In this document: positions 12,200 through 56,483 of the stretch, one piece after another | Layout of the letters: the number at the start of each line of letters is the position of its first letter | Numbering within the stretch: the first letter of the stretch is position 1 | Source of the DNA: Gottfriedia acidiceleris | GTDB lineage: Bacteria > Bacillota > Bacilli > Bacillales > Bacillaceae_G | Direction of reading: 5' to 3' | Assembly (NCBI RefSeq): GCF_002128425.1 | Contig: NZ_NESS01000001.1 | Span: 248,001-312,000 of the forward strand | DNA length: 64,000 nt | Notes under the pieces: model-generated | Databases searched by the model: none | The model's input: only the letters and a program-made list of their open reading frames with translations | Told to the model about the DNA's origin: nothing | Position numbers and translations under genes: made by a program

Positions 12200-13660
12200 T
12201 TAAATAGTAGCATCACCGATTGTTTTTCCACCTTTATTATGTTGTTTTTCACTAGCTTTTGTTCGAACAACTAGGTGCCAGAAAGCTCTGCCGTCAAATG
12301 GTATAAATGGCCAAAAGTAAGGTGTATTTAAAGTATTTAGACTTGCTAAAAACAGAATAAACAATGTCGAACCAATCATAAAGCCTTTAATACCTAATAT
12401 TGCTGTTAATATTAATATGAAAAATTTGGCCAGTTTATTTGCTAGTGCTAGCTCATAACTAGGTGTAGCATACGATCCAATCATTGACACAGCCGTATAT
12501 AATACTACTTCTGGCTGGAATAGGCCTACATCAATTGCGACTTGTCCAATTAATACCGCTGCAATAATACCCATTGATGTTGACACTGCATTTGGTGTAT
12601 GTATACTTGCCATTCTTAGGAATTCAATCCCCATATCAGCTATGATTAATTGCAAGTAAATCGGAATGTTACTTGTTTCTTTTGGACCAATATAACTTAA
12701 TGATTTAGGTAAGACCTCTGGGTAATTACATAATAGTAACCAAAATGGTAATAAAAAGACTGACATAAATATTCCAATATAACGAACCCATCGAAGAAAT
12801 GTTCCGACAGAAGGAGTCTGTCTGAATTCTTCAGCATGTTGCATATGGTGATAATATGTTGCAGGCGTAATGATTACACTTGGAGAAGTATCGACAATAA
12901 TACATACATGTCCTTCAAGAATATGGTTTGCAACAACGTCAGGTCTTTCCGAATATCTAACTAATGGAAATGGATTATATCCTTGTTTTAAAATAAATTC
13001 CTCTAATTTCTTATCTGACATTGTAAGGCCATCAACGTGAATACCTGTAATTCGATCTCGGACTTCTTTAACAAGTTCCGCGTGTGCTAAACCTTCTATA
13101 TACGATAAACATACATCTGTCTTTGAACTTTCACCTACTTGAAGAATTTCATTTCTTAAATTCTCGTCACGTATACGTCTTCTTATTAGACCAGTATTAT
13201 TAATAATGTTTTCAGTAAAGCCGTCTCGTGAACCACGTACTACTCGCTCGGTGTCTGGTTCTGTTGGACCACGACCAGGATAACTCCTTACATCTACTGC
13301 AAGTCCTTTATCTTCTCCATCAACTAATACTACAATCAAACCAGATAATACTTTCTTTATAACATCTTCAAATGTTAAAACAATCTCTACTGATTGATGG
13401 ACAATCGTATCCTCAATATTTTTAAACATTGATTTGTTTTTCTCGACTTTTTCTAGCCCAATTAAGTCATCTAAGAATCTCTGAATAAAACTTGTATCCG
13501 TTAATCCATTAACATAATATAGATTAACTTCAACTTTATTTACAAAAATCACACGTTTTCCAATATCAAAACTTACTCCATAACCTATTCGATCACTTAT
13601 TGTATGAGCATTTGTAACTAGTTTATTTGTAAGTTTTGTCGGCTCTTTTTTCGTAGTCAG
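12200..13660 (-). CDS. spoVAF: Stage V sporulation protein AF, apparent CTG start
   Basis: GerA-type A-subunit homologue of the inner spore membrane, made in the forespore with the dipicolinic-acid channel. Motifs [21 protein letters not shown] split around 80-100, [14 protein letters not shown], and the late membrane helices ([20 protein letters not shown] and following) are typical. The ATG-less frame extends 36 codons upstream of the GTG at 13552 (reading [14 protein letters not shown]...) to a CTG at 13660-13658, which overlaps the spoVAEa stop as CTGA and sits 7 bases after AGGAGTG. That gives 486 residues, the expected length; starting at 13552 would remove the conserved N-terminus. Confidence 0.9.
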
Positions 13661-44209: not shown

Positions 44210-44225
44210 TGTGATTTAAGTCACA
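44210..44225 (+). promoter_or_regulatory. FNR box of hcp
   Basis: TGTGATTTAAGTCACA, a perfect TGTGA-N6-TCACA site. A TATAAT -10 lies at 44247-44252, so the box is centred at about -41.5, the class II activating position. Confidence 0.9.
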
Positions 44226-44281
44226 AATAATGATTATATCCTGCCCTATAATAAGGTTAGTAAAAGTTAGGGGGATGAATG

Positions 44282-45571
44282 ATGTTTTGTAACCAATGTG
44301 AACAAACTCCGAATGGCGGTTGTAAGATTGTCGGTGTATGTGGAAAAGATGAAACAATTGCAAGTTTACAAGATACTATCGTTTATGGATTAAAGGGAAT
44401 TGCAGCTTACCGCACACATGCAGCTCAATTAGGGTATACTGATCCATTTGTTGATCAAGTAACACATGAAGCTTTATATATGACTTTAACAAATTCTAAT
44501 TTTAACTTACAAGAACACATTGATATGGCTATGAAAGTAGGTCAGGCAGCCATTCGGGTAATGGAGCTATTAGATGAAGCTCATACAAAGCATTTTGGAA
44601 TTCCTGAACCTGTACAAGTTACTTCTAATAAAATCGAAGGAAAATGCATTGTAGTGACTGGTCACAATTTATTTGCATTAGAAGAATTGTTAAAACAGTC
44701 AGAGGGTAAAGGTATAAATATTTACACCCACTCAGAAATGTTACCAGCTCACGGTTATCCAGCATTGAAAAAATATACACATTTAAAAGGGAACATCGGA
44801 AAAGCTTGGTTTGATCAACGTCGGTTATTTGAAAAATTCCCTGGAGCAATTTTAGCAACCACAAACTGTGTGATGCCAATAAAGGGAAGTTATGCAGATC
44901 GTTTCTACTCATATGAAGTAGCTGGATTAGAAGGTGTAACAAAGATTATAGGGGAAGATTTTTCCCCATTAATTCAACGTGCATTAGATCTACCAGAAGC
45001 AAATATGGAATCAAAAGAAGTAATGACAACTGGTTACCATCACGAAACAGTTTTGTCTATAGCTCCTGAAATTGTAGAAGCTGTAAAAAATGGGAAAATT
45101 CAACGGTTCTTTGTTGTAGCAGGATGTGACGCCCCAGGAAAAGGTGGAGAATATTATCGTGAACTTGTCACTTCTTTACCAAATGATACAGTAATTTTAA
45201 CAACATCTTGCGGTAAATTCTGTTTTAATGATGTAGATTACGGTACAATAACTGGTACTAGCATTCCTAGATTTATAGATTTAGGGCAATGCAATAATTC
45301 AATTTCCACAATTAAAATTGCGGCCGCTTTAGCAAAAAGCTTTCATTGTAGTGTCAATGAATTGCCAGTTAGCATTATACTTTCTTGGTTTGAACAAAAA
45401 GCTGTAGCCATATTATTAGGGCTATTTAGTATTGGCATCCAAGATATTCGAATCGGACCAAAAGCACCTGACTTTATTAATGAAGGAGTTTTAAAAGTAT
45501 TAGTTGATGCATTTGGCTTAAAATTAATTACTAATGCAAAAGAAGATTTGAATACTATTTTACAAGGATAA
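44282..45571 (+). CDS. hcp: Hydroxylamine reductase / hybrid cluster protein, short type
   Basis: 429 residues. N-terminal cluster CNQCEQTPNGGCKIVGVC (C-x2-C-x7-C-x5-C, the [4Fe-4S] pattern), and hybrid-cluster ligands in NCVMP, VAGCDAPGKGG, TTSCGKFCFND and the Glu of DLGQCNN-type region. Hcp reduces hydroxylamine and is reported as an NO reductase under nitrosative stress. It lacks ~110 residues after the N-terminal cluster compared with the ~550-residue enzymes, fitting the short class III. AGGGGG is 7 bases from the ATG at 44282. The FNR box makes it anaerobically induced. Confidence 0.93.
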   Translation: MFCNQCEQTPNGGCKIVGVCGKDETIASLQDTIVYGLKGIAAYRTHAAQLGYTDPFVDQVTHEALYMTLTNSNFNLQEHIDMAMKVGQAAIRVMELLDEAHTKHFGIPEPVQVTSNKIEGKCIVVTGHNLFALEELLKQSEGKGINIYTHSEMLPAHGYPALKKYTHLKGNIGKAWFDQRRLFEKFPGAILATTNCVMPIKGSYADRFYSYEVAGLEGVTKIIGEDFSPLIQRALDLPEANMESKEVMTTGYHHETVLSIAPEIVEAVKNGKIQRFFVVAGCDAPGKGGEYYRELVTSLPNDTVILTTSCGKFCFNDVDYGTITGTSIPRFIDLGQCNNSISTIKIAAALAKSFHCSVNELPVSIILSWFEQKAVAILLGLFSIGIQDIRIGPKAPDFINEGVLKVLVDAFGLKLITNAKEDLNTILQG

Positions 45572-45766
45572 TTTCCTAAATGAACAAAGAACTTCTCTTA
45601 CATGGGAAGTTTTTTTTATGTTTATTTCTGTTTCAATGTTCTTATTTCTACTATAAATAAATGAATAAGATGAACAACTGAGCTCAAAGTATCGATCATC
45701 TCGTTTTTCCCGTATTGATTGAATTGTTGCTAAAATGTAATTATCTGTAACGCCAGAACATATCAT
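45560..45766 (-). CDS. Doubtful small frame antisense to the hcp 3' end
   Basis: 68 codons beginning MICSGVTDNYILATIQSIRE, with AAGGAAG five bases before the ATG. The first ~30 residues look protein-like, but the rest runs through the hcp terminator region. May be a remnant or chance. Confidence 0.2.
   Translation of the reverse strand: MICSGVTDNYILATIQSIREKRDDRYFELSCSSYSFIYSRNKNIETEINIKKTSHVREVLCSFRKLSL
45585..45618 (+). terminator. Terminator of hcp
   Basis: AACTTCTC and GGGAAGTT flank a 6-base loop, followed by TTTTTT. Confidence 0.8.
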
Positions 45767-45934
45767 CTTCCTTAAGTCATTCCCTTCTATAGCGATTTAG
45801 CCTACTACCACATCAAACTTTTCTTATTCTATATCCTTAGAGTTCTATGCTTTTGAATAGCATGGTATTATAGTAATAAATGTTTTCTTGATAAATACAA
45901 TGGTGTTCAACTTTAACGGAGCGGAGATACTTTG

Positions 45935-46651
45935 ATGGAAAAAAATATCAAAAGAAAAAGTGACCTTTCAATCGTTTCTGAAGACTTGGCTTCCTTATTA
46001 CAGTCAATCGGAACGACTCGTTCAGTAAAAAAAGGTACCTTCTTATTTCAAGAAGGAGAAGATGCGAAAGAATTGTATATAATTAAATCAGGAATGATCC
46101 AAATAAGTAAGCTAACTATATACGGTGATGAATTAAATCTTCGCATTTGTAAAAAAGACGACTTAATTGGAGAATTAACTCTCTTTTCAGAGAATCCGAA
46201 CTATATGCTTAGCGCTTACGCTTTAGAAGCAGCAGAAGTGCAGGTTATCCCTAAAGATATCTTAGAAAAAAAACTAATTAACGATGCTCCATTGACATTT
46301 GAATTTATGAAATGGATTTCTACTCACCTTAGAAAAAATCAATCAAAGATTCGTGACTTAGTATTAAATGGTAAAAAAGGCGCACTTTATTCTACACTCA
46401 TCCGTATATCAAACTCTTATGGAGAGTTACAAGAAAACGGAATTCTTCTTAATATTCACCTTACCAATCAAGACCTGGCTAAGTTTTGTGCTGCTACTAG
46501 AGAAAGTGTTAATCGGATGTTAAGCCATTTAAAGAAAAATAATGTTATTAGTTATTCTTTCGATGGAAAAATTATCATCAAAGACTTACAATTTCTTAAA
46601 AATGAAATTGGCTGTGATAACTGTCCAAAAGATATTTGTAACATAGATTAG
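45935..46651 (+). CDS. fnr: Anaerobic regulator Fnr (Bacillus type, C-terminal Fe-S)
   Basis: 238 residues, Crp/Fnr family. Cyclic-nucleotide-like beta barrel (GTFLFQEGEDAKELYIIKSG), dimer helix, and HTH with NQDLAKFCAATRESVNRMLS. The C-terminus CDNCPKDIC has Cys at 227, 230 and 235, the same positions reported for the [4Fe-4S] ligands of B. subtilis Fnr. It senses oxygen and activates anaerobic genes. ATG at 45935 follows GGAGCGGAG. It stands between hcp and narK, both of which have FNR boxes; no clear FNR box is seen before fnr itself. Confidence 0.94.
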   Translation: MEKNIKRKSDLSIVSEDLASLLQSIGTTRSVKKGTFLFQEGEDAKELYIIKSGMIQISKLTIYGDELNLRICKKDDLIGELTLFSENPNYMLSAYALEAAEVQVIPKDILEKKLINDAPLTFEFMKWISTHLRKNQSKIRDLVLNGKKGALYSTLIRISNSYGELQENGILLNIHLTNQDLAKFCAATRESVNRMLSHLKKNNVISYSFDGKIIIKDLQFLKNEIGCDNCPKDICNID

Positions 46652-46791: not shown

Positions 46792-46807
46792 TGTGATATA
46801 CTTCACA
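46792..46807 (+). promoter_or_regulatory. FNR box of narK
   Basis: TGTGATATACTTCACA, a perfect TGTGA-N6-TCACA site; a GATAAT -10 at 46827-46832 places it near -40. narK is 75 bases downstream. Confidence 0.88.
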
Positions 46808-46881: not shown

Positions 46882-48069
46882 ATGCAAGGTTCTAAAATTC
46901 AATTACCTCTTCAAACATCAAGTCTCATCGTGGGGTTCATGGTGTGGGTACTCATTTCTTCACTAATGCCAAATATTCGGCAAGATATTGAATTAACAAA
47001 TGGTCAAGTCGCACTAGCCACGGCCATCCCTGTAATCTTAGGAAGCATTCTACGTATTCCAATCGGGTATTACACAAATCGATTTGGAGCCAGACCCATT
47101 TTCACAAGCTGTTTTCTTGCTCTTTTATTTCCTGTATTCTTCATTAGTCATGCCGATTGTCTTTTAGATTTAGTTATCGGAGGATTGTTCGTTGGAATAG
47201 GTGGGGCAACCTTTTCAATCGGAGTAACTTCACTGCCAAAGTATTACCCTTCACATAAACATGGTTTTGTGAATGGAATCTATGGATCTGGTAATATTGG
47301 TACAGCCATTACTACTTTTTCTGCACCTGTTTTGGCTAAATCATTTGGCTGGGAAACAACGGTCAGATTTTATTTAGTATTATTAATTGTGTTTGCCCTA
47401 TTAAACTTTCTGTTCGGTGATAAAAGTGAGAAGAAAGTAAATGTTCCGATTATAAAGCAGGTAAAAGAGGTTTATCGTAATTCAACTTTATGGGCACTTA
47501 ATTTATTCTATTTCATTACTTTCGGATCATTTGTTGCATTTACAATCTATTTACCAAATTTCTTAGTTAATAATTTTAATTTAAGTCCTGTTGACGCTGG
47601 TATACGTACAGCTGGATTCATTGCTCTAGCAACATTTTTCCGACCAATCGGTGGCCTTCTTTCAGATAAATACAATGCTTTCAATATATTATTGTTTGTC
47701 TTTGGGGGGCTAACATTCTCAGGAGTTCTATTATCTTTTTCGCCTACTATTAAACTATACACAGTAGGAGTTTTATTAGTAGCAGTTTGTGCAGGGATCG
47801 GAAACGGTATAATTTTTAAATTAGTACCACTCTACTTTACAAAACAAGCCGGAATTGTAAATGGTTTAGTTGCTGCTATGGGAGGTTTAGGTGGGTTCTT
47901 TCCTCCATTAGTTTTAACATCTGTGTTTAGCTTGACAGGACATTATGCGATTGGATTTATGGCATTATCTGAGTTTGCGCTTCTCAGTTTTGTTATTGTT
48001 GTATGGATGACTTACCGTGAAAAATTGAAAATGGAATATAAAATACTAGAAAATATATCTAAGCAATGA
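46882..48069 (+). CDS. narK: Nitrate/nitrite transporter NarK
   Basis: 395 residues, 12-helix MFS of the NNP family. Family motifs: LATAIPVILGSILRIPIGYY (with the conserved Arg), FVGIGGATFSIGVTSLPKYY and NGIYGSGNIGTAITTFSAPV (the Gly-rich nitrate signature), and AAMGGLGGFFPPLVL in the second half. It carries nitrate in and/or nitrite out. AAAGGGGC precedes the ATG. Coupled to fnr in position; its own FNR promoter. Confidence 0.93.
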   Translation: MQGSKIQLPLQTSSLIVGFMVWVLISSLMPNIRQDIELTNGQVALATAIPVILGSILRIPIGYYTNRFGARPIFTSCFLALLFPVFFISHADCLLDLVIGGLFVGIGGATFSIGVTSLPKYYPSHKHGFVNGIYGSGNIGTAITTFSAPVLAKSFGWETTVRFYLVLLIVFALLNFLFGDKSEKKVNVPIIKQVKEVYRNSTLWALNLFYFITFGSFVAFTIYLPNFLVNNFNLSPVDAGIRTAGFIALATFFRPIGGLLSDKYNAFNILLFVFGGLTFSGVLLSFSPTIKLYTVGVLLVAVCAGIGNGIIFKLVPLYFTKQAGIVNGLVAAMGGLGGFFPPLVLTSVFSLTGHYAIGFMALSEFALLSFVIVVWMTYREKLKMEYKILENISKQ

Positions 48070-48218: not shown

Positions 48219-48295
48219 TGAGATTTCTACCGTTTCTTCTATAATAATAGATGAATCGAACGTTAGTGATAAAGTCACAGGAGGAGAAACTGATC

Positions 48296-48832
48296 ATGTT
48301 AACTGTTAAATTACATGCTATTAGCCCTGATAAATCTATCGAACATACCCTTCATATGAATGGGTTTAGAATACAAGACGGAACGTATTTTTACACAAAC
48401 AGTAACATTAAATTAGAAGGTGTCGTAGATTCCAACAAAGGATCTTTAAAAATTAATTTTTCTCCACAATTAAATCTAAAACAATATACAATCGTACACG
48501 ATATTATTAAAAATCTTATTCTAGTTCTTAATGCTAAATATAATGATTCTCAAAGTTTATTAGGCTACTTAATTAATGGAGAAGGAGCTTACATCATTAC
48601 AAATTGGAATTATTGGGTCTCCTTTCTTCAAAAAGCGAAACTACATAGTTTAGAAGGAAAAAAAGTACGAGTATTCGATGAAACAAAGAAAGAAATTGCC
48701 TCTGGTATGTTTATAAGCTACATAATGGATGAACAAACATCATCTATTTCAGAATGTACTTTGATTACACATTTTGGTGAGAGATCCTTTAAAGGAAGCA
48801 ATTTATTAATTGAAGCAACAAACGAGTGGTAA
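48296..48832 (+). CDS. Unknown protein, predicted FNR regulon member (possibly ArfM-like)
   Basis: 178 residues, beginning MLTVKLHAISPDKSIEHTLH. No domain I can name; no membrane helix, no Cys cluster. The C-terminal ~55 residues (LEGKKVRVFDETKKEIASGM) read like an SH3-like beta barrel. AGGAGGAG precedes the ATG. Its promoter carries an FNR-like box, and it stands between narK and the molybdoenzyme operon. In B. subtilis the FNR-dependent regulator arfM, of similar size, lies in the narK-fnr-narGHJI region, so an ArfM homologue is a reasonable guess from context, not from sequence. Confidence 0.75.
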   Translation: MLTVKLHAISPDKSIEHTLHMNGFRIQDGTYFYTNSNIKLEGVVDSNKGSLKINFSPQLNLKQYTIVHDIIKNLILVLNAKYNDSQSLLGYLINGEGAYIITNWNYWVSFLQKAKLHSLEGKKVRVFDETKKEIASGMFISYIMDEQTSSISECTLITHFGERSFKGSNLLIEATNEW

Positions 48833-48959: not shown

Positions 48960-49154
48960 TTATTTTTGATATTCTTGCTTTCTCCATTTTAAGTAAGTTA
49001 GAAAGCAAACTATAGAAGAAAGAACGCCTATAACAGTAAATAGCTTAACATGTTCATATTTTTCTCCATAAAAAGACTCGATCGTCCATTGAAGCATCAC
49101 CACGTTAACAAATAGGGTTATAAATATGATTATCCAATATTTTTTATGAACCAT
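48960..49154 (-). CDS. Small two-helix membrane protein, last gene of the molybdoenzyme operon
   Basis: 64 residues with helices YWIIIFITLFVNVVMLQWTI and LFTVIGVLSSIVCFLTYL and a basic end. Its start overlaps the Rieske stop by 11 bases, which shows coupling to the operon. No known family. It may be an assembly or anchoring subunit. Confidence 0.7.
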   Translation of the reverse strand: MVHKKYWIIIFITLFVNVVMLQWTIESFYGEKYEHVKLFTVIGVLSSIVCFLTYLKWRKQEYQK

Positions 49155-49677
49155 GACGAACTTTCCTTCCTACTGCGTAAACAACATCATTTATTACTTC
49201 TAATTCTATCAGTGGTAATTCACGCTGAGGTGGGCCAGCTAGAGGCTGACCATTATTCACGCTAAAAAATCCACGGTGACAAGGACACAATAGCTTTGAT
49301 TCTTCCTTATCATAAAAAACAGGACATTGTAAATGAGTGCATTTATTATTATAAGCTTTTAGTTTACCATCTTTTGTGTGTACTAGTATCGCAGGTTCAT
49401 CAGCTGTTGGATAGTTAAAGTTCATTGAACTATCTTTTGGTAATTCTTTTAATCTTATAATCTTTTTTCTGTTCGAATCATCTTTCTTATTATTGAGGGC
49501 AATAGCTGAAAATGGAACAGTTGCTAATCCTAGAGTAACGGAAGCACCTACAACGGACTTTAGAAAAGATCTTCTATTTAATTTTAAATCTTCATTCCTG
49601 TTTAAGTTATCGATTAAGTTAATCATATCATCTTTTGTTTCTATTACATTTCGTTTCCCTTTACTATCTTGAGGCAT
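49144..49677 (-). CDS. Rieske [2Fe-2S] protein with Tat-type signal anchor
   Basis: 177 residues. Twin-arginine motif NRRSFLK (Arg35-Arg36) and hydrophobic segment SVVGASVTLGLATVPFSAIA, preceded by an unusually long ~34-residue N-tail. Rieske box CTHLQC...CPCHRGFF: both Cys-His ligand pairs and both extra Cys for the stabilising disulfide are present, as in high-potential bc1/b6f Rieske proteins. The domain should lie outside the membrane. It stands 33 bases after the 16-Cys ferredoxin gene and would pass electrons in the same complex. Confidence 0.9.
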   Translation of the reverse strand: MPQDSKGKRNVIETKDDMINLIDNLNRNEDLKLNRRSFLKSVVGASVTLGLATVPFSAIALNNKKDDSNRKKIIRLKELPKDSSMNFNYPTADEPAILVHTKDGKLKAYNNKCTHLQCPVFYDKEESKLLCPCHRGFFSVNNGQPLAGPPQRELPLIELEVINDVVYAVGRKVRHGS

Positions 49678-49710
49678 AGGTACGTCTCCTTTCGCCTTAC
49701 ATGATCTTAC

Positions 49711-50250
49711 TTACGTATACACTCCAAAGAATTCTGGAACGTATTCCCACTTATTTCCTTCTTGTGGTTTTTTACCTTCAACTAGGTTCATCTGAGATCT
49801 TTTTCTACGCAGCTGCTGCATTTCATCAAAATCAATAAAACGAATCGCATCACTAGGACATACAGAAGCACACATTGGTGCAATATCGTATTTTGAGCGA
49901 TCGTAGCACATGTCACATTTGTACATTTTATTTTCTTTAAAATCGAACTTAGGAATACCAAACGGACATCCAAAAGTACAATTCCTGCAACCTATGCATT
50001 TCTCTTCCATAGCTGAAAGAACTACACCTTCTTCAGTTATTTGAATGGCATTCGCGGGACAAACACGTGCACACGCTGGATCTTTACATTGCATACAAAG
50101 CATCGGAAAGGTTTGACGACTTTCCATGAAATCAACATATTCTACATAGTTTCTTTCTCTTGCGTCATGATCACCGCATTCTCGGCAAGCTGCTTGACAT
50201 GAACGACATCCAATACATCGCTCAAATTCTAAATACATGATTTTATTCAT
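49711..50250 (-). CDS. Four-cluster [4Fe-4S] ferredoxin-type electron-transfer subunit (DmsB/NrfC-like)
   Basis: 179 residues with 16 Cys in four groups: CIGCRSCQAAC, CMQCKDPACARVC, CIGCRNCTFGC and CDMC...CASVC. This is the small electron-transfer subunit found with molybdopterin oxidoreductases of the DMSO-reductase superfamily. No signal peptide, so cytoplasmic side. ATG at 50250 with GGAGTCGGG upstream is preferred over the longer frame to 50289. It follows the catalytic gene by 22 bases. Confidence 0.9.
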   Translation of the reverse strand: MNKIMYLEFERCIGCRSCQAACRECGDHDARERNYVEYVDFMESRQTFPMLCMQCKDPACARVCPANAIQITEEGVVLSAMEEKCIGCRNCTFGCPFGIPKFDFKENKMYKCDMCYDRSKYDIAPMCASVCPSDAIRFIDFDEMQQLRRKRSQMNLVEGKKPQEGNKWEYVPEFFGVYT

Positions 50251-50272
50251 CAATCCCGACTCCTTGCTAAAG

Positions 50273-52399
50273 TTATTTATATTTCTCAATCTTCAGTGAG
50301 CATACTTTAAATTCTGGCATTCTCGAAATCGGATCTAAACATGGATTGGTTAATTGATTGACCGCTAATTCTTTTCCCCAATGATATGGAACAAATACCG
50401 TATCCCTTCTCGTTGCTTTTGTTAATTTCGTTTTAACTATCATTTGGGAACGTGGTGTTATTAACTTTACAAGCTCGCCATCTTCTAATCCATATTGGCT
50501 TGCAAGTGCCGGATGCATCTCAGCAAATGGCTCAGGACATTGTTCCATAAGAAACTTGACTCTTCTTGTTTGAGCACCAGATAAATAGTGAAACACTACC
50601 CTTCCTGTAGTTAAGAACAAAGGATACTCCTTCGTTGGAATTTCACCTGCTTCCTTCCATTCTACAATTGGTAGGTTTGCTTTACCGTCTGGCGTTCCAA
50701 ACTGGTCTATAAACATCGTTGGAGTGCCCGGATGGTCTTCGGAAGGACAAGGCCAAAATACTCCGTCTTCATTATCAATTCGATCCCATGTTATTCCGTA
50801 ATAGTCTGCTTTCCCACCTTTAGTGGCTAATCGAAACTCTTCAAAAACTTCTTTGGCATTTTGATATGAAAAATATTTACCTTTGCCCATTCGTTCTGCA
50901 ATTAAGCTCACAATCTTCCAATCTGGCTTTGATTCACCTAAAGGTTCTCTTACTTTACGGATTCGGATTACTCGACCTTCGAGGTTTGTTGTTGTTCCTT
51001 CATCCTCTGCCCAAGTAGTAGCTGGTAATACTACATCAGCAAACTCTGCTGTTTCAGATAAGAAGAAATCACTGACAACTAGAAAATCCAGCTTCCTAAA
51101 CCCGTTCCAAATATGTTCAAGATTCGGTGCAGAGACTGCTGGGTTACTACAAATAACATGCATACCACGAATGTTACCTTTCTGAATTTCATCGAACATT
51201 TCATATGCAGAAACACCTGGCTTTGGCATTTCGCTTGGATCGATTCCCCATACTTTTGATACATACTTCACTGCTTCTTTATCTGTAAGCTTTCTATATC
51301 CTGGTAAAAGGTCGGCTTTTTGCCCGTGCTCTCTTCCTCCTTGACCATTTCCCTGACCCGTAAAAGTAGCAACACCAGAAGCAAATTTACCTATTTGTCC
51401 CCTAAGCAGTGCCATCGATGTATAAAGTGAAACGTTATCTACACCTTTTGACTGTTGTTCTACACCTCTCGCAAACATAACAACTGATTTTTGAGATAGT
51501 CCATAAATATGAGCAGCTTTTACGATTTTTCCAACCGACACGCCTGTTATCTTTGAAGTAAATTCAGGTTTGAACTTTTCAACTGTTTTCTTAAGTTCTT
51601 CAAAATTATTACATCTCTCATTTACATAGACTTGATCTACGTAGTCATTTTTAATGAGTAGATGAAGTATTCCGTTCGCCAATGCAGAATCTGTACCTGG
51701 CTTAAGATCCAAATGTACATCTGCAACACGCGCTGTTGGAGTCTCCCGTGGATCTGCCACAATCAGTTTAGCTCCCTTGTCCTTTGCTCTCCACAACCAT
51801 TGGATGCTCGTTGGATGACACTCAGCGGTATTTGAACCAGCAATAAAGAAACAGTCTGTATGTTCTAATTCAGTCCACGGAAGGGTTGAACCTCTGTCAG
51901 TTCCGAGTGTCTTAATGAATCCCCCTGCTGCAGAGCTCATACAGAATCGACCATTGTAGTCGATAAACCTGGTACCAAGACCAACTCTCGCATATTTACC
52001 TACTAAATAGCATTTCTCATTAGTCATAGATACTCCACCAAAAACAGATAAAGCATCTCTTCCACTTTCTTTTTGTATTCGCTTAAAGTTTTCTTCAATA
52101 AGGTCTAGCGCTTCATTCCAAGTAGCTTTAACAAATTCTCCGTTTTTCTTAATAAGTGGAGTAAGGATTCGTTCATCGTGCTCAACAGTTTGGTATGCGG
52201 TTACCCCTTTTGGGCACATTTTTCCTTTTGTAACTGGCCAGTCATACCTTGGCTCTACCCCAACTACTTTTCCTGACTTCTCATTCACACGAATATGCAT
52301 TCCACATTGCATTCCACAATAACAACAATGGGTAGTAATTAACTTTTCTCCCGGTTTATGAAGGTTTTTAACACCTTCTTTGACAATGTATTGGCTCAT
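50273..52399 (-). CDS. Molybdopterin oxidoreductase, nitrate-reductase-like catalytic subunit (NarB/NasA family)
   Basis: 708 residues binding one [4Fe-4S] and Mo-bisMGD. Cluster Cys25, 28, 32 and 62 (HCCYCGMQC ... GKMC). The Mo ligand is Cys153 in GRFCMSSAAGG, the Cys type of NapA/NasA/NarB nitrate reductases rather than the Ser/Asp or Sec types. Other segments: AGSNTAECHP, GQGNGQGGREHGQ, and the C-terminal beta-barrel domain ending PFAEMHPALASQYGL... to FVPYHWG. No Tat signal, so cytoplasmic. Nitrate is the best substrate guess, given narK nearby; formate or another oxyanion cannot be excluded. Starts by an ATGA overlap with the membrane gene. Confidence 0.88.
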   Translation of the reverse strand: MSQYIVKEGVKNLHKPGEKLITTHCCYCGMQCGMHIRVNEKSGKVVGVEPRYDWPVTKGKMCPKGVTAYQTVEHDERILTPLIKKNGEFVKATWNEALDLIEENFKRIQKESGRDALSVFGGVSMTNEKCYLVGKYARVGLGTRFIDYNGRFCMSSAAGGFIKTLGTDRGSTLPWTELEHTDCFFIAGSNTAECHPTSIQWLWRAKDKGAKLIVADPRETPTARVADVHLDLKPGTDSALANGILHLLIKNDYVDQVYVNERCNNFEELKKTVEKFKPEFTSKITGVSVGKIVKAAHIYGLSQKSVVMFARGVEQQSKGVDNVSLYTSMALLRGQIGKFASGVATFTGQGNGQGGREHGQKADLLPGYRKLTDKEAVKYVSKVWGIDPSEMPKPGVSAYEMFDEIQKGNIRGMHVICSNPAVSAPNLEHIWNGFRKLDFLVVSDFFLSETAEFADVVLPATTWAEDEGTTTNLEGRVIRIRKVREPLGESKPDWKIVSLIAERMGKGKYFSYQNAKEVFEEFRLATKGGKADYYGITWDRIDNEDGVFWPCPSEDHPGTPTMFIDQFGTPDGKANLPIVEWKEAGEIPTKEYPLFLTTGRVVFHYLSGAQTRRVKFLMEQCPEPFAEMHPALASQYGLEDGELVKLITPRSQMIVKTKLTKATRRDTVFVPYHWGKELAVNQLTNPCLDPISRMPEFKVCSLKIEKYK

Positions 52400-53574
52400 T
52401 CTTCATGATCCCCTTTGTTATATAAATTAATATTTTCTTGTACTTCCTCTGGAAAACGATAATAATCATCTGATCTGTTTTTACTAAAACCAGACATTTG
52501 AATTCCATTTAATGTAGATATAGGATCACCACTTTTAAGATGTGGCTTTGAATTTAGCTGCTTCATGACTCTGATTCTTCTTCGACATGGTAAACAGTAG
52601 TCTGAGAGATAACTTCTATCTTCAAGTTGTAAATCAAAGCTTTGGGCAGCTAATATATCTTTTACATCGCTAATTTGATCATCAGAACTATAGAGTTTCC
52701 CACATCTTTTACAAGGCCTTGTATACACCATAAGTTCTTGTTGATAGTTCATTGGTACTGCTGTTGCTAATGGACGGATTGGTAAATGAAATAACTTTCC
52801 GAATGGAAAATAGATAAGTAAAATAACAACTGTCAATTGGTGAATAAGTGTTAAGTAATGGTGCAACCAACCATCTAAAAGTGAATATGAAACAGTTAAT
52901 ATGAGTCCTGACACTGTTACAGCTAGCAATAAATATAAAGGTAATAAATCAAATTCAGCACGTTGTGTCACTTTTACATCTTGACTCACTATTCTTCTTG
53001 CGATTGCCATGATTACACCAATAAGTACCATAACAGCTGTAATGTTTAATCCGTTGTAAACCATTTCAGCGAATATACCGTGTGCTGCCATTGAAATGGT
53101 ATCAACACCCATAACGACAATTGTGTAGGTATTTGGATCTACAAGTTCAAAGTGCATCCAGCCAAATGTCAAACCAAAGGTGATTGCAAAGGAACCAATG
53201 CATCCCCAAGAAATTAGTAAATGTTGTACACCTCTGTAAATACCTCTTTTAAAAATAAATTTCTGTAAGAAAATATTTTCAAATGCTGTTTTGGCGATAG
53301 ATGTTAAATTCCGTTTTTTTCTTGAATTTTGTTTTAAATTTTTCAAACTACGCTTTATGACCTGGTTTGTTGCTGGCCTGATAAGCCATGCAGACATCCT
53401 AATCGTTAGGCCTACTGCAAAAATGAGCGAAGAAATAAAATAACCCATTAATGCCATATCGAAGTGTAAAAACCGGTCCGTTCCAACCCACGTTGTAAAG
53501 AGTAGAAGCAAAATAATAAAAAATGAATACATACTGCTTTTTGAGTAAAATGAGCGCTCGAGGGAATTTCTCAT
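52396..53574 (-). CDS. NarI/HdrE-like cytochrome b membrane subunit with C-terminal CxxC pairs
   Basis: 392 residues. About six membrane helices from 20 to 290; His residues on the helices (GVQHLLISWG, MAAHGIFAEM, WLHHYLTLIHQLTVV) could ligate b hemes as in NarI/DsrM-type quinol oxidases. The ~100-residue cytoplasmic tail has CKRC and, ~40 residues later, CLPC, a possible metal or Fe-S site. First gene of the five-gene operon; GGAGG lies 11 bases before the ATG at 53574. It would exchange electrons with menaquinone. Confidence 0.82.
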   Translation of the reverse strand: MRNSLERSFYSKSSMYSFFIILLLLFTTWVGTDRFLHFDMALMGYFISSLIFAVGLTIRMSAWLIRPATNQVIKRSLKNLKQNSRKKRNLTSIAKTAFENIFLQKFIFKRGIYRGVQHLLISWGCIGSFAITFGLTFGWMHFELVDPNTYTIVVMGVDTISMAAHGIFAEMVYNGLNITAVMVLIGVIMAIARRIVSQDVKVTQRAEFDLLPLYLLLAVTVSGLILTVSYSLLDGWLHHYLTLIHQLTVVILLIYFPFGKLFHLPIRPLATAVPMNYQQELMVYTRPCKRCGKLYSSDDQISDVKDILAAQSFDLQLEDRSYLSDYCLPCRRRIRVMKQLNSKPHLKSGDPISTLNGIQMSGFSKNRSDDYYRFPEEVQENINLYNKGDHEE

Positions 53575-53667
53575 ATCATGTTCAACCTCCATGTGAATTT
53601 TTTAACATCGAAGTGTCTGTTTAATTGATAAAATTGGATACATGATGAAGTCTTCTTCTTTGTCATA

Positions 53668-53710
53668 ATTGTACAGAAAGACTAATTCCAAGACTGTGAA
53701 ATACATCACA
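53668..53710 (-). promoter_or_regulatory. FNR box and promoter of the molybdoenzyme operon
   Basis: TGTGAAATACATCACA (53695-53710) is a perfect TGTGA-N6-TCACA site. On the minus strand TACAAT (53668-53673) is the -10, putting the box centre at about -41.5; the operon start is ~87 bases further. Confidence 0.9.
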
Positions 53711-54308: not shown

Positions 54309-56483
54309 TTATGGATTAACATCTACACCAAATGGACCATCTCCTGTTCCTATAAAAGTTTCAGCAGAGTTAGAAGGTCCACTATATACTCCTAAATTGT
54401 CAGCATTCTCGTCAGCCACGTAAATTTTGTTTGTATTTGGATTAATACCTACACCACGTGGGCCAAGACCTGTATTTAAAGTAGCAATAACTGTATTACT
54501 ATTTCCATCGATTACTGAAACAGTAAAAGCGGTTTGGTTTGCTACATATATACGGTTTGAATTTTTATTTACACCTAAAGCAATAGGTACTGTACCAACT
54601 GCAACTGTTGTTAAAACAGTATTCGTATTTCCATCGATTACTGTAACATCATTGCTACCTGAATTTGCAGTGTAAATTCGATTCGTGTTTGGATTTACTC
54701 CTACATCTTCTGGTGCAGTACCAACTGTAATGGTAGTTATGACTGAATTTAAGTTTCCATCAATTACACTGACATTATCACTAAACTTGTTTGCAACGTA
54801 AATTTCATTCGTATTCGTATTGACTTTAATACCAGATGGTCCATCACCTACTGTCAGTGTCGTAATTAATAAATTTGTACTTCCATCAATTACTGTAACA
54901 TTATCTGACCCTTGATTCGAAACGTATAGTCGGTTTGTAATAGGATTTACAGCTACTTCATCTGGACCAGTTCCTACTGGGATTGTAGCTATAACTGTAT
55001 TTGTATCTCCATCAATTACTGAGACATTATCACTTGCAAAATTAGCCACGTAAATTCTGTTCGTAACTGGATTTACGGCTACACCTCTTGGGGTTGTTCC
55101 TACCGGTACTGTAGCAATGACAGAATTTGTATTTCCATCTATGACTGATACATCGTTACTATTTGTGTTAGATACATAAATTCGATTAATTGTTGGTGCG
55201 AACGCTGGTCCAGTTGCTCCTGTCGCTCCATCTACTCCTGTTGCTCCTGTTGCTCCTGTTGCCCCATCTGCTCCTGTCGCTCCCGTTGCTCCATCTGCTC
55301 CTGTCGCTCCCGTTGCTCCATCTGCTCCTGTCGCTCCCGTTGCTCCATCTGCTCCTGTCGCTCCCGTTGCTCCATCTGCTCCTGTTGCTCCATTTGCTCC
55401 TGTCGCTCCCGTTGCTCCTGTTGCTCCATTTGCTCCTGTCGCTCCCGTTGCTCCATCTGCTCCATCTGCTCCTGTCGCTCCCGTTGCTCCATCTGCTCCG
55501 GTTGCTCCTGTTGCTCCATCTGCTCCTGTTGCTCCTGTTGCTCCTGTTGCCCCATCTGCTCCTGTCGCTCCCGTTGCTCCATCTGCTCCTGTCGCTCCTG
55601 TTGCTCCATCTGCTCCTATTGCTCCTGTTGCTCCTGTCGCTCCTGTCGCTCCCGTTGCTCCATCTGCTCCTGTCGCTCCTGTTGCTCCATCTGCTCCGGT
55701 TGCTCCGGTTGCTCCGGTTGCTCCGGTTGCTCCGGTTGCTCCTGTCGCTCCTGTTGCTCCATCTGCTCCTGTTGCTCCTGTTGCCCCATCTGTTCCTGTC
55801 GCTCCCGTTGCTCCATCTGCTCCTGTCGCTCCCGTTGCTCCATCTGCTCCTGTCGCTCCCGTTGCTCCATCTGCTCCTGTCGCTCCTGTTGCTCCATCTG
55901 CTCCGGTTGCTCCGGTTGCTCCTGTCGCTCCTGTTGCTCCATCTGCTCCATCTGCTCCCGTTGCTCCATCTGCTCCTGTCGCTCCCGTTGCTCCATCTGC
56001 TCCTGTCGCTCCCGTTGCTCCATCTGCTCCTGTCGCTCCCGTTGCTCCATCTGCTCCTGTCGCTCCCGTTGCTCCATCTGCTCCTGTCGCTCCCGTTGCT
56101 CCATCTGCTCCTGTCGCTCCCGTTGCTCCATCTGCTCCTGTCGCTCCCGTTGCTCCATCTGCTCCTGTTGCTCCATCTGCTCCTGTCGCTCCTGTTGCTC
56201 CATCTGCTCCTGTCGCTCCCGTTGCTCCTGTTGCTCCTGTTGCTCCATCTGCTCCTGTCGCTCCCGTTGCTCCTGTTGCTCCATCTGCTCCTGTCGCTCC
56301 TGTTGCTCCATCTGCTCCTGTCGCTCCTGTTGCTCCTGTTAATCCTGTTGCTCCGGTTGCTCCATCTGCTCCTGTTGCTCCTGTTGGACCTGTGATCCCT
56401 GTCGGCCCTGGAGGAGCTGGTGGAAATGGACCAGTTGGGCCTGGTGGGGTTGGTTGCCCTGGTGGGCCTGGTGGAAATGGCAA
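54309..56483 (-). CDS. Exosporium-type collagen-like protein with seven-repeat YVTN beta-propeller
   Basis: 724 residues in three parts. Residues 1-~35 are Pro/Gly rich ([20 protein letters not shown]). Residues ~30-420 are collagen-like Gly-X-Y repeats, almost all GAT, GAD and GPT, in GADGATGAT-type units. The last ~300 residues have seven repeats of ~42 residues (RIYVSN...DVSVIDG...VIATVPVG...GVAVNP), which fits one seven-bladed YVTN propeller in place of the usual BclA C-terminal head. Bacillus collagen-like proteins of this kind form spore surface filaments. The TTG start is 7 bases after GGAGGTG. Repeat number is probably variable. Confidence 0.9.
55210..56400. repeat. Tandem repeat region coding GAT/GAD collagen triplets
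   Basis: About 1.2 kb of 9-base based repeats (units such as GCTCCTGTC, GCTCCCGTT, GCTCCATCT) that combine into 18- and 27-base higher-order units. All reading frames stay open here because of the repeat. Confidence 0.95.

Follow-up and report, generated by a model that had tools for sequence, protein, structure and literature searches.

Five genes in a 64,000-nucleotide stretch of Gottfriedia acidiceleris DNA (contig NZ_NESS01000001.1; the whole stretch is called the window below) form an operon, cybA-moB-fesC-rieD-smE, that likely encodes a menaquinol:nitrate oxidoreductase for anaerobic respiration. The types of the subunits, their cofactor-ligand residues, the synteny, the Fnr-type sites and the kinship of moB with NasC can be read directly in the sequence; beyond these, we infer that the substrate is nitrate and the process respiration. 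The complex would probably allow many bacilli to respire nitrate by a kind of enzyme otherwise described for the use of nitrate as a nutrient. An earlier reading of the window made from its letters (the sequence-only reading) had proposed a probable nitrate-respiring complex of unusual composition, an interpretation for which our results speak.

Operon layout and distribution

The five coupled genes of the sequence-only reading were found again. Their open reading frames all lie on the minus strand, from 53592 to 48960, with overlaps or short gaps between neighbours: cybA and moB share 4 bases, rieD and smE 11 bases, and ribosome-binding sites precede fesC (start codon ATG 50250) and rieD. The probable start of cybA is the ATG at 53574, with GGAGG directly upstream, instead of 53592. 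An Rfam scan gave no match at the gathering threshold. The operon and its upstream site are as follows (Tat, twin-arginine translocation; Mo-bisMGD, molybdenum-bis(molybdopterin guanine dinucleotide)):

cybA, 52396 to 53592 (likely start 53574), minus strand: HdrE/DsrM/NarI-like membrane cytochrome b, C-terminal domain with four invariant Cys
moB, 50273 to 52399, minus strand: Cys-ligated Mo-bisMGD catalytic subunit, sister to NasC, without Tat motif
fesC, 49711 to 50250, minus strand: DmsB/FdhB-like electron-transfer subunit, four [4Fe-4S] clusters
rieD, 49144 to 49677, minus strand: bc-type Rieske [2Fe-2S] protein, Tat-targeted, probably membrane-anchored
smE, 48960 to 49154, minus strand: small protein with two predicted membrane helices and no Pfam match of its own above cut-off; its position matches that of DUF6755 in Deinococcus
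Fnr-type box TGTGATGTATTTCACA, 53695 to 53710, minus strand: upstream of cybA

We compared the best 80 of the 375 stretches that encode a moB relative in a scan of a genome collection; these loci are kin to each other and not independent, and with the own genome they make 81 carrier genomes. The cybA gene stands upstream of moB in 79 of the 80 loci, the exception (L061) being a stretch that begins within moB. All 80 have fesC (split in one, cut by contig ends in two), 78 have rieD, the two other contigs ending before it, and smE, too short a gene for reliable detection, was detected in 64. This gene order is synteny far beyond chance. It recurs on a Deinococcus plasmid, where a DUF6755 protein replaces smE and a transporter follows. 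The only plasmid records with cybA in the collection scanned are four from Deinococcus, and among 398 genomes sampled from the phylum the cytochrome occurs in two (own included) at E <1e-100; weak matches in 13 genomes concern other HdrE-like proteins.

Most carriers belong to the Bacillaceae (Gottfriedia, Mesobacillus, Evansella, Anaerobacillus, Salipaludibacillus, Neobacillus, Robertmurraya and others), joined by Exiguobacterium and some Paenibacillaceae. Their moB identity is at least 73% in group I (L003-L063) and 62-64% in group II (L064-L082); the moB of the window is 96% identical to a Gottfriedia acidiceleris moB, and a third variant stands beside group I in two genomes of the same genus (L090, L091). 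A few loci depart from the common picture. L039, titled Chryseobacterium sp. ISL-80, has the operon order and the scores of Mesobacillus and is possibly a mislabelled genome. The Exiguobacterium loci L041 and L047 show the cytochrome in two separate frames, the second scoring about 40 bits directly before moB, and the C-terminal part of cybA may be a separate gene there. In a related genome (L098), moB is split into two frames, with its neighbour genes present.

The catalytic subunit and its electron-transfer partners

The moB protein carries the domains Molybdopterin and Molydop_binding in Pfam and NCBIfam. It scores 904 bits on the NasC model NF047855, short of the equivalog cut-off of 1100, and the 53 complex-type moB of 50 genomes score 859-946 bits. 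The NarG model gives 64.5 bits (cut-off 1084), the NapA cut-off is missed as well (312-315 bits vs 904-931), and the score on NasC exceeds that on the formate dehydrogenase model TIGR01591. The moB sequence is DYNGRFCMSSAA around the molybdenum ligand and TGQGNGQGGREHGQK in a second motif downstream, both close to NasC. After the Cys or selenocysteine ligand the aligned formate dehydrogenases have His, or Gln in the YjgC-like group, whereas moB has Met; in the second motif, their Arg corresponds to Thr in moB. This His and this Arg are presumably the catalytic His141 and Arg333 of formate dehydrogenase. Cys-Met is retained in 83 of 83 moB sequences, and TGQGNGQGGREHG in 80, the remaining three being off by one residue. 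Nitrate-reductase active-site motifs and a Cys ligand, which together mark NasC, are thus both found in moB, while a Tat motif occurs in 0 of 84. The Cys-ligated Mo-bisMGD subunit without Tat signal of the sequence-only reading is confirmed by these counts.

A tree was built from 38 of the 111 aligned catalytic subunits, with a midpoint root for drawing only; twelve loci had been excluded before alignment (split, partial, duplicate, selenocysteine), and two selenocysteine entries were restored as named rows. The moB of group I, group II, L090 and Deinococcus form a group of their own (100/97), within which the placement of Deinococcus is weak (85/64). Its sister is NasC with Nonomuraea (97/91), and a split at 100/100 sets the two apart from the formate dehydrogenases. 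Under this midpoint root moB falls outside both the formate dehydrogenases and assimilatory NasC, two positions that the sequence-only reading had named as contrary to its proposal. L102, labelled beforehand as a formate dehydrogenase, grouped with the Rhizobium NasA row; a long-branch warning applies around these two, and therefore this part of the tree was not used.

The membrane protein likened earlier to NarI and HdrE has QmoC, DsrM, TmcC and NarI as its best models, every score lying under cut-off, and to this extent the likeness held. His124, His251, His269 and the four Cys of the C-terminal domain are invariant in 80 of 80 aligned cybA. His251 and His269, 18 apart, align with NarI His187 and His205 (hhalign; a weak match of probability 37%, for this pairing only). 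His124 opens a predicted helix behind a strongly positive loop (15 lysines and arginines), and because of that loop it should be inner-side and match NarI His56. The position that we equate with NarI H66 holds Ser or Ala in all 80. On this reading of the alignment, the inner heme of cybA seems complete and the outer heme one ligand short. Among 18 distant HdrE/DsrM-like relatives compared, all 11 that were readable by a sequence pattern likewise have no fourth His; its absence is therefore not a unique mark of the complex.

The fesC protein matches 4Fe-4S models (Pfam/NCBIfam). Its 17 Cys, where the sequence-only reading had counted 16, suffice for four [4Fe-4S] clusters; this holds for 84 of 87 sequences, and the three exceptions are fragments. 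The rieD protein matches the Rieske family in the same libraries, with the cluster ligands present, both disulfide Cys in 84 of 84 and a Tat motif in 83 of 84; in the exception, the scripted start lies too far upstream. Among solved structures it is closest to bc1 Rieske proteins and AioB, with similar profile scores to both. The Ser and Tyr of bc1 Rieske proteins raise the potential, and rieD has Gly and Phe at these positions in all 84 sequences; the term 'high-potential' used earlier is therefore probably too strong, whereas the Tat-type export signal stands.

Regulation, neighbouring genes and other nitrate reductases

A perfect Fnr-type palindrome stands upstream of cybA, and two further boxes precede narK and hcp, beginning 90 and 69 bases, respectively, ahead of the gene starts. 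The own genome of 4.77 Mb holds 23 perfect sites, three of them in the window, against 2 for the reversed pattern. Our scan upstream of cybA covered 54 of 61 group-I loci, those seven without a cybA start placed by the script being left aside, and all 19 group-II loci. Of the 54 group-I loci, 48 have a perfect box and all have one with no more than a single mismatch; the reversed-pattern control gave 0 of 54. In 400-base tiles of all loci, these sites included, the frequencies are 111 of 3756 and 213 of 3756, respectively. Group II has a perfect box in 0 of 19 and a single-mismatch box in 2 of 19; all 19 stretches encode a histidine kinase, a response regulator and a GAF protein. The gene order of this set was viewed in L064 and L077, and one of each protein was scanned. 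The group-II locus L064 also has two small genes between smE and narK (12433-12747, 12734-13012), with no family match above cut-off and with kin in 13 and 19 loci.

The genes and sites next to the operon in the window are:

orf193, 48251 to 48832, plus strand: convergent gene, near the operon in 51 of 80 loci
narK, 46882 to 48069, plus strand: nitrate/nitrite transporter
Fnr-type box, 46792 to 46807, plus strand: upstream of narK
fnr, 45932 to 46651, plus strand: Crp/Fnr regulator with the C-terminal Cys cluster CDNCPKDIC, which we take to be of the Bacillus type
hcp, 44279 to 45571, plus strand: hybrid-cluster protein, Fnr box at 44210-44225

The sequence-only reading had taken narK, fnr and hcp as pointers to nitrate. 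The first two are the better evidence. The NarK of the window shares 65-69% identity with the NarK encoded next to narGHJI in 5 of the 8 NarG-bearing genomes examined, and clustering places a NarK-like gene near the complex in 42 of 81 loci. Outside the window, the stretches examined show hcp close to the operon in no more than 3 of 80 loci; it is thus weak evidence for nitrate, and we dropped it as general support. A YwiC gene, which presumably accompanies narK and fnr in B. subtilis, is near in 24 of 81 loci; of the cofactor genes, moaE is near in 13, moeA in 12, mobB in 11 and moaA in 9. A gene for an Mrp/ApbC-like ATPase is near the complex in 33 of 81; L051 (11974-12723) and L034 have it inserted between fesC and rieD, a position pointing to a dedicated Fe-S cluster carrier.

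Searches of Pfam, NCBIfam and solved-structure relatives gave no match for orf193, which may be an assembly or regulatory factor. Between hcp and fnr, positions 45563-45796 show a weak likeness to moaA (22.6 bits) and no NCBIfam match. They may be a moaA remnant, because L004-L006 have moaA at this place (the L006 copy scoring 401 bits); the own genome has intact moaA elsewhere (C1:609279) and intact moeA. Upstream of the operon, 54309-56483 encode a 724-aa protein of collagen-like repeats followed, as judged by eye, by repeats like those of the YVTN beta-propeller; at this place an Mrp-like ATPase gene and YwiC are found in L004-L008, together with a gene for a radical S-adenosylmethionine protein in L004-L007.

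A narGHJI operon elsewhere, which the sequence-only reading had allowed for as another source of nitrate respiration, does not explain the own genome: its two PF00384 proteins are moB and a formate dehydrogenase (821 bits). NarG is above cut-off in 17 of 81 carriers, leaving 64 without, and NapA in 12. Neither is present in 56 of 81, own included (49 of 62 in group I, 7 of 19 in group II), with the caveat that genes missing from draft genomes can reflect assembly gaps. One of these 56 is the group-II carrier Bacillus sp. DNRA2 (L069/G528), whose strain name suggests nitrate ammonification. Counts of NasC and nirB cover 50 of the 81 carriers. A separate NasC is found in 22 of them, mostly adjoining nirB; in 28 no NasC exceeds the cut-off, and 18 lack NarG, NapA and NasC alike. 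Gottfriedia acidiceleris (L004/G061) and Mesobacillus selenatarsenatis SF-1 (L051/G094) are two carriers in which none of the three exceeds its cut-off. The nirB gene is above cut-off in 30 of the 50 and not in 20. At a distance of up to 3 kb it accompanies 22 of 24 true NasC genes vs 0 of 53 complex-type moB. In the own genome an Fnr-type box stands 24 bases upstream of the nirB frame.

Proposed mechanism, alternatives and known systems

We propose that cybA and the exported rieD would jointly take electrons from menaquinol on the outer side of the membrane. The heme on the inner side (ligands His124 and His269) would hand them to fesC with its four [4Fe-4S] clusters, and these to the [4Fe-4S] cluster of moB, which would reduce, in the cytoplasm, nitrate imported by NarK. 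Protons released outside and consumed inside would give a redox loop as in NarGHI, and in the own strain the nitrite would then pass to NirB. Because the outer heme of cybA seems one ligand short, the Rieske cluster may come first in accepting electrons on the outer side; rieD could do so in a linear chain or could take one of two electrons as in a Q-cycle. To our knowledge, an exported Rieske protein beside a cytochrome with a ligand-short outer heme has no bacterial precedent. A bolder version, which we regard as unlikely, would make of rieD and the one-sided HdrE-like cytochrome a bc1-like module that splits the electrons of menaquinol. Its Q-cycle-like step would conserve more energy than NarGHI, and the complex would represent a fourth architecture among dissimilatory nitrate reductases, derived from the NasC line and common to Bacillales and Deinococcus.

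Several observations weigh against a respiratory nitrate reductase. The NarK of the window reaches 216 bits on the NarK model, under the cut-off of 312. The transporter of the Deinococcus plasmid has NarU (281 bits) and NarK (277 bits) as best models, both below cut-offs, and gave no match to the NarK of the window in the comparison made. The scanned group-II GAF protein is nearest to the nitrate sensor NreA, with 89 bits where the cut-off is 175; MctS and MctR are the best models of the kinase and the regulator, so that 'NreABC-like' is a label of ours only. On TIGR01591 moB passes the cut-off of 666.25 by 3 bits (669.6). In four of the 53 cases nirB is found 12-23 kb away from complex moB. 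Within the genus the complex is patchy, being present in 5 of 13 genomes. Finally, Anaerobacillus alkalilacustris, in whose genome (L016/G072) the complex is accompanied by NapA and NasC, appears as a non-user of nitrate in a table in the part of PMC11944866 available, where text and table contradict each other for another species; A. arseniciselenatis, with NarG and NapA besides the complex, is tabulated there as nitrate-positive.

These points leave room for other functions. An assimilatory nitrate reductase fed by menaquinol instead of reduced nicotinamide adenine dinucleotide or ferredoxin, for nitrogen supply at low oxygen, would fit with assimilatory NasC as the closest relatives of moB and with the 28 of 50 carriers in which NasC is not above cut-off. 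Available passages of Heylen and Keltjens (PMC3475470) moreover propose for B. bataviensis an 'alternative' assimilatory system, nasC linked to hcp and a Rieske gene; the neighbours there differ, and those passages name neither a cytochrome nor a four-cluster subunit. We hold an assimilatory role to be improbable in view of the Fnr-type sites or the linked two-component set at the complex, the separate NasC of 22 carriers and the 20 carriers with no nirB above cut-off. Another oxyanion (selenate, chlorate, iodate or the like), or a mixed specificity, is brought to mind by carrier names that refer to selenate or arsenate reduction and by the substrate changes that PMC7331816, in the parts consulted, describes across the formate dehydrogenase/NasC/Nap/Aio group. 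Active-site motifs as in NasC, an adjoining NarK of the narGHJI type and the NreA-like protein of group II argue for nitrate instead, and we give a different oxyanion little chance.

The place of action could also be otherwise. AioA is exported by hitch-hiking on the Tat signal of AioB, and moB might ride in the same way on rieD and work outside the membrane, given the Tat motif in rieD, its absence from moB and the similar scores of rieD with bc and AioB Rieske proteins. The nearby narK implies nitrate import, the positive loops and C-terminal domain of cybA are predicted inside, on the side expected for fesC, and NasC is cytoplasmic according to the excerpts of PMC10100899; export of moB is very doubtful on these grounds. 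A menaquinone-reducing formate dehydrogenase has, in turn, both the TIGR01591 score and the best-scoring solved relatives of moB, which are formate dehydrogenases, in its favour. We gave more weight to Met and Thr in place of the His and Arg of these enzymes and to the grouping with NasC, with narK next door and a separate formate dehydrogenase in the own genome on the same side, and set this function aside as having almost no probability. We regard a respiratory menaquinol:nitrate oxidoreductase as the likely function.

Two large surveys treat NasC/NasA as exclusively assimilatory in the passages available (PMC7331816, PMC10100899): the former places no four-[4Fe-4S] or membrane-anchor subunit with any clade member, and the latter has NasC/NasA function only with oxygen. 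For a 2024 paper (PMC10949509, likewise consulted in part) the dissimilatory nitrate reductases are Nap, Nar and Nxr. The literature searched, that is titles, abstract starts and passages, with subscription journals poorly covered, yielded no description of the five-gene complex. If the complex respires nitrate, neither the rule of an exclusively assimilatory NasC nor that of dissimilation by Nap, Nar and Nxr only would hold, and surveys that count narG and napA would overlook 56 of the 81 carriers examined. The Rieske protein also makes the coupling of quinol oxidation in a nitrate reductase directly testable.

Among known systems, NasC shares with moB the Cys ligand, the active-site motifs and the position as sister group; the complex differs from it by its membrane cytochrome, four-[4Fe-4S] and Rieske partners, by Fnr-type sites and by the distance of moB from nirB. 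With NarGHI it would share the logic of a quinol-fed, cytoplasm-facing enzyme with a b-heme membrane subunit and a four-cluster subunit, NarK and Fnr adjoining. In contrast, moB is not of the NarG type, none of the five genes matches the NarJ family in Pfam or NCBIfam, cybA appears to have three heme-ligand His where NarI has four, and a Rieske protein is added. The HdrE, DsrM, QmoC and TmcC cytochromes, described for heterodisulfide or sulfur complexes, give the best cybA scores, and the fourth His is missing as well in the 11 distant relatives that were readable; cybA carries in addition a four-Cys C-terminal domain. The AioBA pair stands further off, rieD remaining under the TIGR02694 cut-off (49 bits vs 95.65) and moB having a Cys ligand where the catalytic subunit of AioBA has no amino-acid ligand to molybdenum.

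The archaeal Nar systems invoked by the sequence-only reading are a good parallel for the Rieske/cytochrome b pair and a poor one for the remainder. In Haloferax mediterranei (narB, narC, narG, narH), such a pair is thought to feed the nitrate reductase, and a Q-cycle has been proposed for the haloarchaeal enzyme, according to the available text of PMC2483277; the NarG-type subunit works outside there, unlike the NasC-like moB without Tat motif, and NarC is a 486-aa cytochrome b, unlike the HdrE/NarI-like cybA. Nar1 of Streptomyces coelicolor also depends on a Rieske-containing complex, the bcc-aa3 supercomplex, although it is of NarGHI type and the Rieske protein belongs to that separate oxidase supercomplex (PMC7931247, in part). 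On our best reading the complex is a variant of respiratory nitrate reductase that is distinct from both NarGHI and NasC and whose composition has no counterpart in the literature searched.

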